A stretch of 18,270 nucleotides of DNA, from positions 2,281 through 20,550 of the forward strand of contig MGQK01000099.1 of the NCBI GenBank assembly GCA_001797815.1. Direction: 5' to 3'. Positions 2,804-14,808 of the stretch are shown piece by piece; within the stretch, counting starts at the first letter, position 1; every line of letters starts with the position of its first letter. Source of the DNA: Deltaproteobacteria bacterium RBG_13_61_14 (lineage in GTDB: Bacteria > RBG-13-61-14). Below the pieces are notes generated by a model that was given only the letters and a program-made list of their open reading frames with translations, did no database searches and had not been told where the DNA came from. A program made the position numbers and the translations under genes.

Positions 2804-3463
2804 ATGAGGCGATGGCAGGCAGCGGCGGCAGGGGCGGCTTTTTTGCTCGCGGCCGCGGCGCGGGCGCAACAGTGGGACGAGCCGGGCACGGACCTGGAGT
2901 CTTTTTACGGCGCGCGCAGCTTCCAGCTCATCACCGTGGGCGCGGCGCCTTATCTCGTTCCCAACGGGGGGATGCTGGAAGAGGTCAGCTTCGCGTTTAA
3001 TACCTTGTCGCGCCGGACCCAGCCCAAGCACTGGCGCAACTATTATGGGGCGGCCCTCGATTTTGCCTCGGCCCAGAAGATCCCTTATGATTTTCGGACC
3101 TTCAAGCAGGCCGACATGGACCTCTGGTATTGCAGCCTGCTCATCCAGAGCAAGCTGTTTTATTCCGACCAGGCCCGGGTCCGGCCCTTTCTGGGCTTCG
3201 AAGGCGGCGGGGGCTTCGGAGGCTTCAGCCTTTACCATCTGGACGACGACGTGGACTCGCCCAAGATTCCCACCCTGAACCTGATCCGCCTGGGGGTGGA
3301 GGCCGGCGTGCACATCGCCCTGGGCGAGCGGGTGGCCCTGGTGATTTCGGACACCACCTCGGCCTACCTCGGGATTATCGGAAGCGATCAGTTTTTCGTC
3401 TTTCCCAACACGGTCTATGTCGGGCTGGCTTTCTGGAAAGGGCTGCCCGAAGACGACCGTTGA
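2804..3463 (+). CDS. Secreted hypothetical protein, probable outer-membrane beta-barrel type
   Basis: A 219-residue product with a clear Sec signal peptide: MRRWQ, an Ala-rich hydrophobic core, and a predicted cleavage after ARA at about residue 21. The mature part is rich in alternating hydrophobic/polar strands, aromatic residues and glycine (FLGFEGGGGFGGFSLYHLDD, then LNLIRLGVEAGVHIALGERV and TVYVGLAFW). It ends in an amphipathic strand with terminal charged residues. This resembles small 8-strand outer-membrane barrels, but I do not recognise a named family. ATG 2804 was chosen because GGAG at 2792-2795 lies 8 nt upstream and the signal peptide starts there; the frame is open further upstream. 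The LOG-family gene starts 28 nt after its stop, so the two are probably cotranscribed. Confidence 0.7.
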   Translation: MRRWQAAAAGAAFLLAAAARAQQWDEPGTDLESFYGARSFQLITVGAAPYLVPNGGMLEEVSFAFNTLSRRTQPKHWRNYYGAALDFASAQKIPYDFRTFKQADMDLWYCSLLIQSKLFYSDQARVRPFLGFEGGGGFGGFSLYHLDDDVDSPKIPTLNLIRLGVEAGVHIALGERVALVISDTTSAYLGIIGSDQFFVFPNTVYVGLAFWKGLPEDDR

Positions 3464-3476
3464 ATTGGATCGGCGC

Positions 3477-3484
3477 GGGGAGGA
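3477..3484 (+). promoter_or_regulatory. Shine-Dalgarno site fixing a GTG start
   Basis: GGGGAGGA ends 7 nt before GTG 3492. It is the only convincing ribosome-binding site for the LOG-family gene and implies that the in-frame upstream ATG at 3417, inside the preceding gene, is not used. Confidence 0.7.
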
Positions 3485-3491
3485 AAGCCAA

Positions 3492-4166
3492 GTGGTCAAA
3501 GAGCGGGCGCACAACGACGAGCAGCAATATTTGGTGGACGCGATCAAGGCCGGCGAGTCCTGGCGCATGTTCCGGATCCTGGCGGAGTTCGTGGAAGGCT
3601 TCGAGGAACTGGGCAAGATTTATCCGGCGGTCTCCATGTTCGGCTCGGCCCGGGCCCAGCCCGGCGACCCGATTTACCAGAAAGCCGAGGCCATCGCCCG
3701 CAAGTGCGCCGAGCACGGCTACGCCGTGATCACCGGCGGGGGCGGGGGCGTGATGGAGGCGGCCAACAAGGGCGCGGCCGAGGCCGGGGGCGTCTCGGTC
3801 GGACTCAACATCGAGCTGCCCTTTGAGCAGGTCCCCAACTCCTACGCCAACGTGCGCCTGTCCTTCCGCTACTTCTTCGTGCGCAAGGTCATGTTCGTCA
3901 AGTATGCCCAGGCCTACATCATTTTGCCCGGCGGCTTCGGCACCCTGGACGAGCTGTTCGAGTCCATCACCATGATCCAGACCCGCAAGATCAAGCCCTT
4001 TCCCGTCTTCCTGGTGGATTCCAGCTACTGGGGCGGGCTGATGGACTGGATCCGGAGCACCCTGCTCGCCCAGGACAAGATTTCGCCGGAAGACCTGGAT
4101 ATTTTCCGGATCATGGACGACCCGGACCAGATCGTCCACGCCCTCGGCCGCACCGTCATCGCCTGA
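3492..4166 (+). CDS. LOG-family (TIGR00730) Rossmann-fold protein
   Basis: A 224-residue protein of the LOG / 'lysine decarboxylase-like' family. Characterised members (plant LOG, some bacterial YgdH/PpnN-like proteins) hydrolyse the N-glycosidic bond of nucleoside 5'-monophosphates, including cytokinin ribotides. The signature PGGFGTLDE is at residues 146-154 and the phosphate-binding glycine loop TGGGGGVMEA at 81-90. R131-K132 follow in the expected place. The N-terminal helix (about 1-45) precedes the Rossmann core, giving a length typical of the ~200-230-residue class. The GTG start is supported by a strong Shine-Dalgarno site. Substrate is unproven: bacterial homologues often act on purine monophosphates. 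The stop is followed 2 nt later by a long inverted repeat (4169-4272). Confidence 0.88.
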   Translation: MVKERAHNDEQQYLVDAIKAGESWRMFRILAEFVEGFEELGKIYPAVSMFGSARAQPGDPIYQKAEAIARKCAEHGYAVITGGGGGVMEAANKGAAEAGGVSVGLNIELPFEQVPNSYANVRLSFRYFFVRKVMFVKYAQAYIILPGGFGTLDELFESITMIQTRKIKPFPVFLVDSSYWGGLMDWIRSTLLAQDKISPEDLDIFRIMDDPDQIVHALGRTVIA

Positions 4167-4168
4167 AG

Positions 4169-4272
4169 AATTGGGGATTGCGGATTGGGGATTGCGGATT
4201 GCGGATGAGCAACGACCAGGCGGGCAGATCAAGGTCTTTCAATCCGCAATCCGCAATCTGAAATCCAAAATT
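4169..4272. repeat. 33-bp inverted repeat built from ATTGCGG-type heptads
   Basis: The left arm (4169-4201) is a run of near-identical 7-mers (ATTGGGG/ATTGCGG). The right arm (4240-4272) is its reverse complement at 28 of 33 positions, with a 38-nt loop. It begins 2 nt after the LOG-gene stop and fills the whole intergenic gap. In RNA it would form a very long hairpin. It may act as a terminator-like or 3'-end-protecting element, although no U-run follows. Confidence 0.8.
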
Positions 4273-4291
4273 GAATAATCCATCATCGCCC

Positions 4292-5437
4292 ATGCCCCCT
4301 GGCTTCGAGCAGGGACCGATCCGCCCGCCCTCCGAGGCCTACAGCCTGCTCCTGCGGGTGACCCGCAACTGCCCCTGGAACCGCTGCGCCTTTTGTCCGG
4401 TCTATAAGCCGGCCAAGTTTTCCCGCCGCTCCCGCGAGGAGGTGCTGGCCGACATCCAGGCCATGCGCTTGTGGCTGGACGAGATCAAGGCCCGCTCCTG
4501 GCAACTGGGCGCCGCCGGCGATCTCTCGCTCCCCACCCTGGCCGCCGTCGAGCGCCGCGACCCGGAGAACCCTTACCTCCGCGCCCTCCTCCTCTTCCTC
4601 CTCGGCGGCGCCGAGACCGTATTCCTCCAGGACGCCGACTCCCTGGTCATCCCCACCGACAACCTGGTCGCCATCCTCCAGAGCCTGCGCGAGACCTTCC
4701 CCACCATCCAGCGCATCACCAGTTACGCCCGGGCCCAGACCTTGTCGCGCCGCACGAAGGAAGAGCTGACCGAGATCCGAAAGGCCGGGCTGAACCGGAT
4801 CCACGTGGGGCTCGAGTCCGGCTCGGATCGGGTGCTCGAGAAAATGAGCAAGGGCGTGACCGCGGAGCGCCAGATCCGGGCCGGCCGCAACGTCAAGGCC
4901 GCGGGCATGGAGCTTTCGGAATACGTGATGCCGGGCCTGGGCGGGCGAGAGCTTTGGCAAGAACACGCGCTCGAGACGGCCCGGGTGCTCAACGCCATCG
5001 CCCCGGACTTCATCCGGCTGCGCTCCCTGGCCGTGCCGCCGGGTGCGCCGCTGTTCGCGATGGTCGAGGCCGGCGAGTTCCAGCCGCCCAACGACCTGGA
5101 GATCGCCCGAGAACTCCGCCTCTTCCTCGAGAGCCTGGAAGGCATCACCTCGAGAATCGTCTCGGACCACATCCTCAACCTCTTCCCGGAGATCGAGGGC
5201 CGCCTGCCCGAGGACCAGCCGCGGCTGCTCGCGCTGCTCGACCGCTTCCTCCGGCTTGGCGAATCCGAGCAGATGGTGTATATATTGGGCCGGCGCCTGG
5301 GCCTGATGGACTCGCTCGATGACCGCGAGCGCGAGCCGGCCCGCGGCCGGGTCCTGGAGCTATTGGCGCGCCTCCAGGCAAAAACCCATGACGACCTCGA
5401 TCGCGTGATCCGGGAAGTGATGACGCGGTTCATTTGA
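4292..5437 (+). CDS. Radical SAM protein with CX4CX2C cluster motif
   Basis: The 381-residue product has the cysteine triplet C27-PWNR-C32-AF-C35. This matches the radical SAM [4Fe-4S] site but with four rather than three residues between the first two cysteines. Downstream it resembles the Elp3/MiaB-NifB barrel: an aspartate-rich strand (VFLQDADSLV), a region with RITSYARAQTL, and GLNRIHVGLESGSDRVLEKM, the 'GLESGSD' segment common in these enzymes. The C-terminal ~110 residues are helical and unassigned. No B12-binding or TRAM domain is visible. The substrate is unknown. The start is uncertain: neither ATG 4292 nor TTG 4271 has a good ribosome-binding site, and 4271 lies inside the inverted-repeat arm, so I prefer 4292. 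A second long inverted repeat begins 3 nt after the stop. Confidence 0.85.
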   Translation: MPPGFEQGPIRPPSEAYSLLLRVTRNCPWNRCAFCPVYKPAKFSRRSREEVLADIQAMRLWLDEIKARSWQLGAAGDLSLPTLAAVERRDPENPYLRALLLFLLGGAETVFLQDADSLVIPTDNLVAILQSLRETFPTIQRITSYARAQTLSRRTKEELTEIRKAGLNRIHVGLESGSDRVLEKMSKGVTAERQIRAGRNVKAAGMELSEYVMPGLGGRELWQEHALETARVLNAIAPDFIRLRSLAVPPGAPLFAMVEAGEFQPPNDLEIARELRLFLESLEGITSRIVSDHILNLFPEIEGRLPEDQPRLLALLDRFLRLGESEQMVYILGRRLGLMDSLDDREREPARGRVLELLARLQAKTHDDLDRVIREVMTRFI

Positions 5438-5440
5438 AGA

Positions 5441-5536
5441 AAGGCTTTAGGCGTCAGGCATTAGGCTTTAGACTCAAGAAGGAGTGAATGCTTTTCTTCT
5501 TCGGCCTAAAGCCTAAAGTCTAACGCCTAAAGCCTT
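5441..5536. repeat. 33-bp inverted repeat built from AGGCTTT-type heptads
   Basis: The left arm (5441-5473) consists of 7-nt units of the type AGGCTTT/AGGCGTC/AGGCATT. The right arm (5504-5536) is its reverse complement at 29 of 33 positions, with a 30-nt loop. It starts 3 nt after the radical SAM stop and ends just before the ribosome-binding region of the FabK-like gene. The architecture equals that of 4169-4272, but the sequence is unrelated. Confidence 0.82.
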
Positions 5537-5550
5537 CAAGGAAAGGGAGC

Positions 5551-6504
5551 ATGAGTCTCAAAATCAACACCCGCGTAACGGAAATTCTCGGCATCGAGTA
5601 TCCCATTTTGCAAGGCGCGATGGCCTGGGTGAGCTTCGCGCCGCTGGTGGCCGCGGTCAGCAACGCCGGAGGCTTAGGGATAATCGGCGGCACCATCTTC
5701 ACCCCGGACGCGATGCGGCAGGAAATCCGGAAGGTCCGGGAGCTCTGCGACAAGCCCTTTGGCGTCAACATCATCTCGCTGCACCCGCTGATTGACCAGA
5801 TCTTGAAGGTGCTGATCGAGGAGAAGGTCCTGGTCGCCACCTACGGCACCGGGAACCCGAGGAAGATCATCGAGATCCTGAAGCCGGGCGGGGTGATGAG
5901 CTTCCCGGTGGTGCCCTCGGTCGCGGCCGCGCTCAAGGCCGAGGCCGACGGCGCCGACGGGGTGATCGTGTCCGGCTGCGAGGGCGGCGGCCACGTGGGC
6001 CAAATTTCCAGCCTGCCCCTGATCCCGCAAGCCCGCGACGCGGTCAAGCTCCCGCTGGTGGCCGCGGGCGGCGTCGCCGACGGCCGGGGCATGGCCGCGG
6101 CCTTTGCGCTGGGCGCCGAGGGCATCCAGATGGGCACCCGCTTCATCGTGACCAGGGAAAGCCCGGCGCACCCCAACACCAAGCAGAAGATCATCGCCGC
6201 CAAGATCGAGGATACGCTGGTGACCGGCAACATCACCGGGCTGCCGGTGCGGGTGATCCGGAACCAGATGGCCGAAGAGTTTTTAAACATGGAGAAGACC
6301 AAGAAGAGCAAGATGGAGATGGCGCTGTTCGGCTCGGGCAAGATGCAGCTCGCGTTCGTCAAAGGCGACGCGGAGCAAGGCTCGGTGATGAGCGGGCAGG
6401 TGGCGGGGTTAATCGCCGATGAGCCGACCTGCGGGGAGTTGATTCAAAGGATCATGCGAGAATTTCACGAGACGATCGCCCAGTTGGGGAAAATTCCCAA
6501 TTGA
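5551..6504 (+). CDS. fabK: FabK-like enoyl-ACP reductase / NPD-family flavoprotein
   Basis: A 317-residue TIM-barrel FMN protein of the nitronate monooxygenase/FabK superfamily. The opening (RVTEILGIEYPILQGAMAWV, residues 8-27), the SNAGGLGIIGG block, the DKPFGVNI segment, EGGGHVG with His148, AAGGVADG (171-178), GAEGIQMGTRF (188-198) and GSVMSGQ (277-283) follow FabK closely. FabK is the FMN- and NAD(P)H-dependent reductase that performs the last step of each fatty-acid elongation cycle. The corresponding histidine in Streptococcus FabK lies in the same E-x-G-G-H-I/V-G motif. Nitronate monooxygenase (2-nitropropane dioxygenase) is the main alternative and annotation pipelines often confuse the two. 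The start is supported by GGAAAGGGAGC just upstream of the ATG. No other fatty-acid genes are adjacent. Confidence 0.85.
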   Translation: MSLKINTRVTEILGIEYPILQGAMAWVSFAPLVAAVSNAGGLGIIGGTIFTPDAMRQEIRKVRELCDKPFGVNIISLHPLIDQILKVLIEEKVLVATYGTGNPRKIIEILKPGGVMSFPVVPSVAAALKAEADGADGVIVSGCEGGGHVGQISSLPLIPQARDAVKLPLVAAGGVADGRGMAAAFALGAEGIQMGTRFIVTRESPAHPNTKQKIIAAKIEDTLVTGNITGLPVRVIRNQMAEEFLNMEKTKKSKMEMALFGSGKMQLAFVKGDAEQGSVMSGQVAGLIADEPTCGELIQRIMREFHETIAQLGKIPN

Positions 6505-11091: not shown

Positions 11092-11341
11092 TTCTTCTCC
11101 CGAATCAGGGGCTGAGCAACGCCAAGCCGTCGGCTCTTCCCGCCCCGTAATTTTTTAGTCAGCCCCGAAAAACAAAACTCACTCCGCACTCCTCACTCCG
11201 CACTCCGCATTCCTCATTCCGCACTCCGCACTTGATCCCTGACACTTGCCACATGACACCTGTCACGTTCCCGTCCCAGGGGCTCAAGCATCAATTGCAA
11301 CCCCGAGGCGTTCCTCCGCGAGCATAGCCTAACGCCGCCGC
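11092..11341 (-). other. Long structured 5' leader of the radical SAM-TetR operon
   Basis: Between the promoter (11356-11384) and ATG 11091 lies about 250 nt of untranslated leader. It contains the heptad array 11181-11271. Closer to the gene, the perfect 8-bp inverted repeat GGGGCTGA/TCAGCCCC (11108-11115 with 11159-11166) encloses a smaller stem, AGCCG/CGGCT, at about 11125-11135. The stem ends about 17 nt from the start codon and could influence ribosome access. I recognise no named riboswitch. Confidence 0.45.
11181..11271. repeat. Heptad array, 13 in-register 7-nt units
   Basis: Seven units of the type ACTCCGC/ACTCCTC/ATTCCGC are followed without loss of register by divergent units (ACTTGAT, CCCTGAC, ACTTGCC, ACATGAC, ACCTGTC, ACGTTCC), nearly all opening with AC. 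Unlike 4169-4272 and 5441-5536 no complementary arm is nearby. Confidence 0.75.
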
Positions 11342-11557: not shown

Positions 11558-12820
11558 TCACTTGGGCAGGTCAAAGACAAGCACCGTAAGGATAAGTTCA
11601 AGGTCTTGGTCTTGTGGGTGACGAAAAATATAGCGGGGTGTAATGCCCGATTCTCTCCCTCCATCAGGCCGCTTGAATTTATTATGATCTTTTACAGCTT
11701 TTCGAATTTCAGCTACCACCTTGGAAGTCCTTTGCTTGCGATTAAATACAATAAGAACCGTCTCGGGATAACGCCAATTTAAATTGCCAAAAAGCTGATC
11801 TACAGCTTCCAGAAATTTCTTTTTCCCACCCCAAATCTTGCATTCAGCCACAAATGCTTTTTCGCTATCAAGCTGAATATAAATATCTGTCTTCCCTTTA
11901 TGACTAAAGGTCTCCGCCGTTGCGTCTCCTTTCAATAGGGCATTCAATGTCCTCAGAAGGTGGTCGCGCAATCTTTCTTCTCCATCTTTTACATAAGTAT
12001 CTGGCCTTTTCTCCATATCTTTACCTGCATTGTAAATTATTGAGATAATTTTTTTGTAATCCAAGGTGTTTTCCCCAATTTGGATTTCAGCCTGGCCCTT
12101 GATCTTTTCCACTACCGATTCCGCTTTTTGGGCCAGGGACCGCAACATCTCAGCCGTTGGGAATGCTGTGCCGGGTATATTCAAGACTTCCAAGGTGGGA
12201 GGCATGACCCGAATCGCCGCCGCGAGCTGATTAAGAATTCCTGCGGCTGTGCTCGCAAACTCATCTGCGCCCTGATAAGCAGCTCGCTCATTTAGGATAG
12301 TGGTTACTTTGAAAAAATCTTCCATCATGTCATCGAGCCCATCCCGGGGCATGATTGGGGCCGAGGCCAGATAATGGGCAACGTATCCCCGCCAGCGAGA
12401 AATGATTTCATCAAGGGGAAGCGTTCGCAATTGAACGGTGGTCATTGCCAGGCTAGGCGTGGCATTTGTCTTGCCGCTCTTGCTATTCGATTCAAGTAGC
12501 TCCGGATAATCAGCGAGGACATGTTTAAAAGCCATTTCTAGGGATGTCTTTGTAGCTTCATGGATTTTACTTCCGCTTAAACCTACGCGGGCCATATCTC
12601 CTTCTAGATCGTTATTTTCATTTGCAAGAAATGAATATATGCGCGTTGAGGCCCCACTTTCTATAAGTTCTCGGAGAGTTGCTTTAAAAAGCTTCATGCG
12701 AGTTTTATTATAGTATCCACTTGGTGTAGATAATCCCCTTCGGGCGCAATCTGCCCTGAGCTTTTCTACCTCCTCTCTATACCACTCGATAATTTCGTTG
12801 GGACGTCTTTGGCGTGTCAT
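11558..12820 (-). CDS. Unrecognised protein with C-terminal PD-(D/E)XK nuclease-like domain
   Basis: A 420-residue protein. Residues 1-110 are helical and charged (IIEWYREEVEKLRADCARRG). The middle (about 130-265) is also helical and unassigned. The C-terminal part carries a restriction-endonuclease-like pattern: helix E281-E282-x-LRDHLLRTLN, then ETFSHKGKTDIYI with D312, then FVAECKIW with E326-C-K328, then a helix and hydrophobic strands (FLEAVDQLFGNL; TVLIVFNRK). The D-x(13)-E-x-K arrangement fits the metal-binding core of PD-(D/E)XK nucleases. It has clearly more A/T-ending codons than its neighbours and stands alone, which suggests acquisition by transfer and perhaps a defence role. AGGAGG 5 nt upstream supports ATG 12820. 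The nuclease call is from motif reading only. Confidence 0.8.
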   Translation of the reverse strand: MTRQRRPNEIIEWYREEVEKLRADCARRGLSTPSGYYNKTRMKLFKATLRELIESGASTRIYSFLANENNDLEGDMARVGLSGSKIHEATKTSLEMAFKHVLADYPELLESNSKSGKTNATPSLAMTTVQLRTLPLDEIISRWRGYVAHYLASAPIMPRDGLDDMMEDFFKVTTILNERAAYQGADEFASTAAGILNQLAAAIRVMPPTLEVLNIPGTAFPTAEMLRSLAQKAESVVEKIKGQAEIQIGENTLDYKKIISIIYNAGKDMEKRPDTYVKDGEERLRDHLLRTLNALLKGDATAETFSHKGKTDIYIQLDSEKAFVAECKIWGGKKKFLEAVDQLFGNLNWRYPETVLIVFNRKQRTSKVVAEIRKAVKDHNKFKRPDGGRESGITPRYIFRHPQDQDLELILTVLVFDLPK

Positions 12821-13238: not shown

Positions 13239-14411
13239 ATGAAGACTGCGAAGAAGGCCGGCAACCGGTTGATCGAAATCAAGGCCGGCAAGGTGGGTCC
13301 GATCAAGCCCCGGCAGAAAACGGTCAAGGTCAAGCAACCCGGGGATTATCCGGGGCTTCCGCCTGTCTATCTTGAGATCTGCCAGAACTACCGCAAATTT
13401 ATGGAAGGCCCCCCGCTCTGCGATGAACTGGTGGCGCTGGTCCAGCACATGTTCACGGAAGAGGAAGCCTCGGTGGTCCGATATCTCGGACCGCTCACGA
13501 TGCTGCCCGCGGACAAGGTGGCTGAAAAGGCGAACCGGCCGGTCGAGGAAGTCCGCCCAATCCTGGACGAGCTGGCAGAAGAAAAACACATCATCGTCAG
13601 CTTCGGCCCGGCCGGGGCCAAGACCTACGTGGGCCTGCCCATTGTGCCGGGCGCGTTCGAGATGGTCCTGATCCGGCAATCCCTGGACACCTTGACGGAC
13701 TGGCACCGCCGCTTCGCCAAGCTGTTCGAGGACCTTTACGAGACCGGATTCATGGTGGACGGCGTGGGCAAAATGCCGCCGGCGATCCGGTATTTGCCGG
13801 TGGGAGGCGTCATCGAAGCCCATCCCATGGCCTTGCCCTCGGACCTGCTGGAGCAGATCATTGACCAGTATAACTCTTTCGCGGTCGGGCTTTGCCAGTG
13901 CCGGATGACCGAAAATATCGTGGGCCGCGGCTGCGGCCGGCCCCTGGACAACTGCACCGCCATGGGCGCCATGGCCGATAGGGCGATTGCCGCCGGCCAG
14001 ATGCGGAGGGTCGAGAAAAAGCAGCTCCTGGAGATCAAGCGGCAGGCTGAGGCCAGCGGTCTGGTCAACTGGGCCATGAACCAGAACCTGATGCCGGGGT
14101 CGAGCGCCATCTGTTCCTGCTGCGGGTGCTGCTGTCACGCCATGCGCATGATCAGCGAGTTCAACCTGCCGGGGACCATCGCGCCGCCCCATTTCATGCC
14201 GGAAGTAGATCAAGACCAGTGCGACTATTGCGCCAAGTGCGCCCGGGCCTGTCCCATGGGCGCCATCACCATAAACACCAAAGCCAAGACGCGCGAGTTC
14301 CAGCCCTTGCGCTGCGTGGGCTGCGGCCAATGCCTGGTGGCCTGCGACAAGCAAAAGGCCATCCGCCTCGAACCGGTCCCTGGATACCAGCCGCCAAAAT
14401 TCCTAGGCTGA
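13239..14411 (+). CDS. Winged-helix / cysteine-rich / 2[4Fe-4S] ferredoxin fusion protein
   Basis: The 390-residue product begins with a basic tail. A helical part resembling a winged-helix domain follows at about 60-125 (MLPADKVAEKANRPVEEVRP). A central cysteine-rich region has C219-x-C221, C232, C239 and the striking CSCCGCCC at 292-299. The C-terminus is a ferredoxin with C328-x2-C331-x2-C334-x3-C338 and C359-x2-C362-x2-C365-x3-C369. The last motif has C-D where C-P is usual. Proteins of this layout (GRGCGRPL..., CSCCGCCC, then two 4Fe-4S motifs) occur in anaerobes and are annotated as 4Fe-4S proteins of unknown role; electron transfer in the cytoplasm is likely. GAAGGA about 7 nt upstream supports the ATG. 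A perfect hairpin follows the stop directly. Confidence 0.87.
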   Translation: MKTAKKAGNRLIEIKAGKVGPIKPRQKTVKVKQPGDYPGLPPVYLEICQNYRKFMEGPPLCDELVALVQHMFTEEEASVVRYLGPLTMLPADKVAEKANRPVEEVRPILDELAEEKHIIVSFGPAGAKTYVGLPIVPGAFEMVLIRQSLDTLTDWHRRFAKLFEDLYETGFMVDGVGKMPPAIRYLPVGGVIEAHPMALPSDLLEQIIDQYNSFAVGLCQCRMTENIVGRGCGRPLDNCTAMGAMADRAIAAGQMRRVEKKQLLEIKRQAEASGLVNWAMNQNLMPGSSAICSCCGCCCHAMRMISEFNLPGTIAPPHFMPEVDQDQCDYCAKCARACPMGAITINTKAKTREFQPLRCVGCGQCLVACDKQKAIRLEPVPGYQPPKFLG

Positions 14412-14434: not shown

Positions 14435-14439
14435 CGATA

Positions 14440-14544
14440 GTGCCTCCATGAGTGCGATTCGTGCTCCGGTGAGTATGATACGTGCTTCCATGAGTGCGAA
14501 AGGCGACTGGATGAGGAAGATAGGTGTCGGGGTGGGGAAGATCC
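14440..14544. repeat. Five degenerate tandem copies of a 21-nt unit
   Basis: Copies start at 14440, 14461, 14482, 14503 and 14524. The first and third differ at few positions (GTGCYTCCATGAGTGCGA...), the second is closely related, and the fourth and fifth drift. Each unit itself divides into three 7-nt parts (for example GTGCCTC-CATGAGT-GCGATTC). Confidence 0.72.
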
Positions 14545-14584: not shown

Positions 14585-14619
14585 GCGGTAGGCAGTATGC
14601 AGTAGGCAGTAGGCAGGGA
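14585..14619. repeat. Heptad array of GCAGTAG type
   Basis: Five in-register 7-mers: GCGGTAG, GCAGTAT, GCAGTAG, GCAGTAG, GCAGGGA. It has the same period as the other intergenic arrays but a different sequence. Confidence 0.7.
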
Positions 14620-14773: not shown

Positions 14774-14808
14774 TTCAGCCTTCATCCTTCAGAATTCATC
14801 CTTCCTTA
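14774..14808. repeat. Heptad array of TTCATCC type
   Basis: Five in-register 7-mers: TTCAGCC, TTCATCC, TTCAGAA, TTCATCC, TTCCTTA. Confidence 0.65.

Follow-up and report, generated by a model that had tools for sequence, protein, structure and literature searches.

Intergenic hairpins built of heptads in a deltaproteobacterial genome: a dispersed set with a short box every seven nucleotides

Two hairpins on either side of a radical SAM gene in the genome of Deltaproteobacteria bacterium RBG_13_61_14 have the same architecture and are built from unrelated 7-nt units, which raises the question of what keeps the architecture when the sequence differs. Reports of heptameric repeats in several bacteria go back decades, to our knowledge, and we know of no explanation for the number seven. 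The initial annotation of this DNA had proposed either a generating mechanism that preserves a 7-nt register or selection on RNA shape rather than on sequence. The stretch that was analysed (the window; 18,270 nt) lies on contig C99 of an assembly of 4.74 Mb in 132 contigs. Its relevant features are listed below.

3417-4166, plus strand: gene of the LOG/'lysine decarboxylase' family (PF03641), upstream of hairpin 1
4169-4201, plus strand: hairpin 1, 5' arm, with a 31-nt array (4170-4200) of five GATT-type boxes, one every 7 nt
4202-4239, plus strand: spacer or loop of hairpin 1, 38 nt, with 40 nt between the box arrays
4240-4272, plus strand: hairpin 1, 3' arm, with AATC boxes (the inverse of GATT), one every 7 nt
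4292-5437, plus strand: radical SAM protein gene (PF04055), between the two hairpins
5441-5481, plus strand: hairpin 2, 5' arm, composed of AGGCNTT/TTAGRCN heptads with a CAAGAAG end
5482-5495, plus strand: terminal loop of hairpin 2, 14 nt
5496-5536, plus strand: hairpin 2, 3' arm, composed of GCCTAAA heptads
5551-6504, plus strand: gene of the nitronate monooxygenase family (PF03060), downstream of hairpin 2
11180-11232, plus strand: unpaired heptad array CACTCCG, 7.6 copies, of the same repeat class
14588-14616, plus strand: unpaired heptad array GTAGGCA, 4.1 copies, from the tandem-repeat search
14774-14804, plus strand: unpaired degenerate heptad array TTCAGCC/TTCATCC, from the tandem-repeat search

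Both hairpins proved to be real and as first described. A repeat search placed the arms of hairpin 1 at 4169-4201/4240-4272 (33 nt, 28/33 paired or 85%, 38-nt loop) and those of hairpin 2 at 5441-5473/5504-5536 (29/33 paired, 30-nt loop); the latter extend to arms of 41 nt with 35/41 positions paired (85%) and a 14-nt loop. Hairpin 1 begins 2 nt past the stop codon TGA 4164-4166, hairpin 2 begins 3 nt past TGA 5435-5437, and Tandem Repeats Finder reported period 7 in all four arms. The inverted-repeat scores of 20.5 and 26.0, respectively, exceeded the best inverted repeat in each of 60 shuffles of the window under a first-order Markov model (maximum 14.5, mean 12.1). Folded as RNA, hairpins 1 and 2 had z scores of -3.5 and -7.3, and none of 200 shuffles was equally stable. 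We assigned hairpin 1 to a GATT class and hairpin 2 to a TTAGGC class. The equal arm length of 33 nt, stressed in the first description, is partly a coincidence: genome-wide, a GATT arm measures 31 nt, made up of five boxes at 7-nt steps and lengthened by 1-2 nt that pair by chance, whereas TTAGGC arms range from 29 to 41 nt. An intrinsic terminator, that is, a G+C-rich stem followed by a T-run, was rejected for both hairpins since no terminator-like site was present at either, and an Rfam search of the window returned zero RNA families. The radical SAM gene likelier starts at ATG 4292 than at the ORF-listed TTG 4271, which sits inside a hairpin arm. Elsewhere in the window, positions 14435-14499 contain a 21-nt direct repeat (CGATACGTGCCTCCATGAGTG) in about three imperfect copies, directly 3' of a gene ending near 14411, and an open frame of 420 codons with zero Pfam matches lies on the minus strand at 11558-12820.

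The wider occurrence of such elements was examined base by base in a first sample of 1.30 Mb, later 1.63 Mb (~34% of the genome), with our own gene calls. The first sample contained 46 arrays of period 7, at most 8 of any other short period that is not a multiple of seven and, at period 14, which is such a multiple, 19; the Markov control gave 0. Period-7 arrays were found 107 times outside genes and only twice inside, even though ~74% of bases are coding. Heptad hairpins accounted for 41 of the 135 inverted repeats in the 1.63 Mb, and their heptads (GATTNNN, TTAGRCN, GGTTNCT and others) are mutually unrelated, which bears out the claim of a common architecture over unrelated sequences. The arrays add further heptads, including ATTNNGG, AAAGCCT, AACCAGG, ACAGTGC, AAGGGTG, ACATACG, ACCTACG and ACTGCCT, and in single arrays such as C65:8477-8529 and C75:3337-3405 one heptad family gives way to another in register. 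A G-quadruplex reading was rejected because most heptads lack G-tracts. Separately, a dispersed repeat of ~340-390 bp, with ~85-92% identity among copies, carries several types of heptad array; its copies were found at C118:10663-11050, C82:42218-42605, C81:60915-61303, C125:65563-65954 and C130:44321-44677, and shorter pieces on C22, C35, C41, C110 and C113.

We consider that the two hairpins belong to a set of non-coding inverted repeats dispersed over the genome, with arms that carry a 4-5-nt box every 7 nt, and that these repeats were multiplied by copying, are maintained by a reader of the box and were left after stop codons by selection; taken together, this account is about an even call. 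Its best-defined members belong to the GATT class. Exactly five boxes were present in 43 of 52 GATT arms (26 hairpins). The spacers of these 26 hairpins measured 14 nt in twelve cases, 21 nt in four and 13 or 15 nt in four, the remainder being 26-46 nt; in 17 of 26 the spacer was exactly 14, 21 or 42 nt. Together with the enrichment of period 7 and the in-register family switches, these spacers support the view that the 7-nt register is kept. Genome-wide, the pattern GATTNNN x3, spacer, AATCNNN x3 gave 60 overlapping matches, corresponding to at least 25 separate hairpins, and the reverse polarity, with AATC in the 5' arm, gave 0. The TTAG/CTAA hairpin pattern similarly had 5 matches and the opposite orientation 0, so in this genome each family has a single polarity. 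The TTAG/CTAA polarity is not universal, as the CTAA-first form is present in two other genomes (G336 and G401).

What is conserved within the GATT arms is the box. In 22 GATT hairpins, ATT was invariant in 164/164 heptads and the final G of ATTNNNG was kept in 159/164, while the triplet varied freely; the commonest heptads were ATTTTGG/ATTTTAG. These box statistics come partly from hairpins picked for lag-7 similarity and membership in the GATT family, and box conservation is somewhat favoured because family selection required several ATT per arm. The two arms of a hairpin, in contrast, did not covary. Cognate heptads were identical in 18/82 cases (20.3 when shuffled within elements, 18.7 between elements); matching nucleotides (487) were slightly above the between-element shuffle (468.6, p 0.013) and did not exceed the within-element shuffle; and in an alignment of nine 76-nt GATT hairpins the paired fraction was 89.2%, the same as the shuffled expectation of 89.2%. 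Mismatches on the sense strand were G-U in 36 cases vs A-C in 29, an excess that is not clear. With arms that do not covary, an invariant box and a free triplet, selection on shape over sequence is unsupported in the GATT class, and this part of the initial annotation was not upheld. Pairing in this class is a by-product of two inverted box arrays, and its free positions are not maintained for pairing. The smaller TTAGGC class differed: arm-arm likeness was 9/26 vs 3.6 within and 5.9 between elements, for which RNA-level or copying effects may be responsible.

These data bear on two alternatives. Firstly, the hairpins may be kept for RNA structure, as stem-loops between cistrons with a role in protecting or processing polycistronic mRNA. 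Folds far stabler than shuffles and the likeness of the TTAGGC arms agree with such a role, but the GATT class shows neither covariation nor a clear G-U excess, and the box is conserved where shape has no need for conservation; we regard this reading as unlikely. Secondly, neutral slippage would expand STRR-like heptamer arrays, and fold-back copying of one array would yield its inverted partner. Period 7 as the sole favoured period, in-register heptad changes inside arrays and the over-representation of heptameric repeats in many bacteria (PMC4692102) are consistent with slippage, as is a pair of related hairpins on C20 that differ by one heptad. However, free slippage fails to predict a fixed number of five boxes, an invariant box next to a free triplet, or strict polarity, and if fold-back copying were fresh, cognate heptads should match, which was not seen in the GATT class. 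We therefore judge it a rather improbable explanation. The invariant box with its free triplet points away from RNA pairing and free slippage and towards recognition of the box every 7 nt.

Part of the set appears to have been spread by copying, as indicated by loops or an exact arm common to some copies. The seventeen 14-nt loops were more alike than expected (5.64 vs 3.97 matches per pair; 0/200 shuffles as high), the TTAGGC hairpins C81:86612 and C125:132863 have a common 30-nt loop with 97% identity, and the C20 pair has both loop and flank in common. The arm ATTTTGGATTTTAGATTTTGGATTTTGGATT was found exactly (31/31) in six hairpins. The majority of hairpins have arms alone in common, with no common loop or flank, and hairpin 1 itself has a loop for which a homologue was not found among the other hairpins. 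The initial annotation had named copies of one ordinary dispersed element as a refutation; this reading fits a minority of hairpins only and was rejected for most. The likeliest history is that whole hairpins or arms were copied and the copies then diverged in all parts but the boxes; whole heptads would also have been gained or lost. When compared with MITEs, the hairpins have inverted arms, and a consistent target-site duplication was not seen in their flanks. The arm nearest the stop was the conserved one in 11/17 cases, which is not significant.

Copying could also be the work of a transposase. REP elements are described in the abstract of one study as a short palindrome with a GTAG or CGTC tag (PMC3733652), and a REP/REPIN-type element with a Y1 (RAYT-like) transposase as its mobiliser deserves mention since 19 Y1_Tnp matches were present here, the highest count of 290 genomes searched, most of them in open frames of ~320 codons (e.g., C81:127918-128244 and C41:44225-44545). 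Moreover, paired inverted units of ~76-110 bp resemble REPINs. On inspection, however, the arms were direct heptad arrays rather than palindromes and had no tag of the kind given in that abstract. A Y1 transposase as mobiliser was rejected because adjacency was not seen: none of five Y1 genes checked (of 19) was flanked by a heptad hairpin, nearby arrays were not clearly above expectation, and Y1 genes are common (169/290 genomes) without a clear link to GATT arrays. Mobilisation of this type is very unlikely.

The hairpins had been described as set directly after stop codons, and their closeness to stops is real. Among co-directional hairpins, 20/30 lay at most 11 nt from the stop, against 10.8 expected under uniform placement (0/5000 simulations as high), and 24/30 were closer to the stop than to the start. 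The spacer length minus the hairpin was often 9-33 nt, lengths that usual co-directional spacers of this genome also span (median 47 nt, quartiles 6 and 132). Such closeness is expected of tolerated inserts in short operon spacers, and no stop-seeking mechanism needs to be invoked, since an insert would land there if it had to leave the ribosome-binding region of the following gene intact. The post-stop position would then be what remains after purifying selection, for example in an operon spacer of 15-35 nt. Position directly past stops and location between co-directional genes in 30/38 cases also suit a function in polycistronic mRNA, but the latter is not a significant excess over the background of 297/439 (68%), and 8/38 hairpins lie between convergent or divergent genes. 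Although the first sample had a co-directional share of 28/31 vs 70%, we do not claim a co-directional preference given the result of the larger sample. Long imperfect intercistronic hairpins would still form in mRNA, with an effect predicted to be secondary.

Returning to the favoured reading of a recognised box, several known heptad systems can be compared. It has been reported that GGGAATC heptamers of Xanthomonas and GGGGA(T/C)T heptamers of Nostoc are tandem, dispersed and mostly intergenic, and that 70-75 convergent pairs in Xanthomonas are able to form stem-loops (Rehm et al. 2015, PMC4692102). The repeats studied here are likewise intergenic tandem 7-nt units at many loci, in close inverted pairs as in Xanthomonas, and GGGGATT of Nostoc is the same heptad as GATTGGG of hairpin 1. 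In contrast to those systems, each with one G-rich heptad for which a G-quadruplex was proposed, many heptads occur here, mostly without G-tracts, and box number, short spacers and polarity are fixed. In the P6b stem of the Nostoc tRNA-Leu(UAA) group I intron, heptads build the stem arms, and two unrelated motifs lead to one structure (Kaasalainen et al. 2015, PMC4476775). TDNGATT, its class I motif, agrees with the heptads GATTTTG/GATTTTA in both arms of our hairpins; that system, however, is confined to one intron, whereas our elements occupy many intergenic loci, and the window has no Rfam intron match. The statement that inverted heptad hairpins are little described therefore holds in part only, as inverted heptamer pairs and heptad-built stems had already been published in these two studies.

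A closer parallel in number is found in class 3 sites of Geobacter metallireducens, which are paired, consist of five tandem heptanucleotides each, include one pair between proB and proA and were proposed to bind an unidentified global regulator; the same genome has GGGACCG x4 elements (PMC2700814). Five heptads per site and sites in pairs are common to both systems, but the Geobacter consensus is MTYCTGA, there are just eight pairs and a hairpin form with fixed spacer is not established. Dispersed intergenic heptamers over unrelated lineages are also represented by the direct repeats TAACTGA of Beggiatoaceae (PMC4679880) and by cyanobacterial STRR; these are direct, almost never inverted and near start codons, whereas the hairpins here are inverted and near stops. 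In parS of pSM19035, the ribbon-helix-helix protein omega/ParB binds contiguous 7-bp repeats, at least four of which are needed for full activity (PMC9499535). The arms here also have contiguous 7-bp units, at least four and usually five boxes per arm; parS differs in its consensus WATCACW, its few plasmid sites and its known protein. By analogy with such tandem-heptad-binding proteins, a multimeric nucleic-acid-binding protein could read the box once per 7 nt and so keep the box, the number of boxes and their register. Recognition of the box is the most likely source of the constraint, yet it is difficult to imagine a single reader for many heptads that are unrelated to each other. In outline, then, such elements are known from Xanthomonas, Nostoc and Geobacter, and the conserved feature here is the box every 7 nt, not the pairing of the hairpin. 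One genome with several heptad types in one architecture, and with an invariant box against a free triplet, offers a testable handle.

The distribution of GATT heptad hairpins is patchy and does not track kinship. The sequence ATTTTRGATTTTRGATT occurs 127 times in this genome, and two genomes that are related to it at no more than domain level have 97 and 85 copies; in total, the sequence was present in 21/290 genomes, and it was absent from both genomes of the same order. GATT heptad hairpins were found in 11/386 genomes in the search of relatives and in 3/50 further genomes (one deltaproteobacterial and two Desulfobacteraceae assemblies). The two nearest genomes available, G001 and G002, had no strong lag-7 arrays in 224 kb; their radical SAM proteins had only 54-62% identity, and the stretches read showed neither synteny nor an empty site. 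Recurrence in unrelated lineages may reflect convergence or transfer, and it connects reports that had been treated separately, namely the Xanthomonas and Nostoc repeats, Nostoc trnL P6b and the Geobacter sites. More speculatively, and in our opinion improbably, these hairpins might be a recurrent element of unrelated lineages read by a common, horizontally acquired factor that binds or templates heptads. If true, such a factor would account for the exclusive preference for period 7, for the single architecture of unrelated heptads, and for the presence of the hairpins in distant lineages but not in the nearest relatives. Period-7 arrays were also observed in other, mostly Desulfobacterota, assemblies, with 23 in 719 kb, whereas any other short period that is not a multiple of seven gave 3 at most; long examples were L145:8561-8707, L124:2562-2692 and L149:5148-5216 (GCTGGAT, AATCCAG/CCCAATA and GATTGAA).
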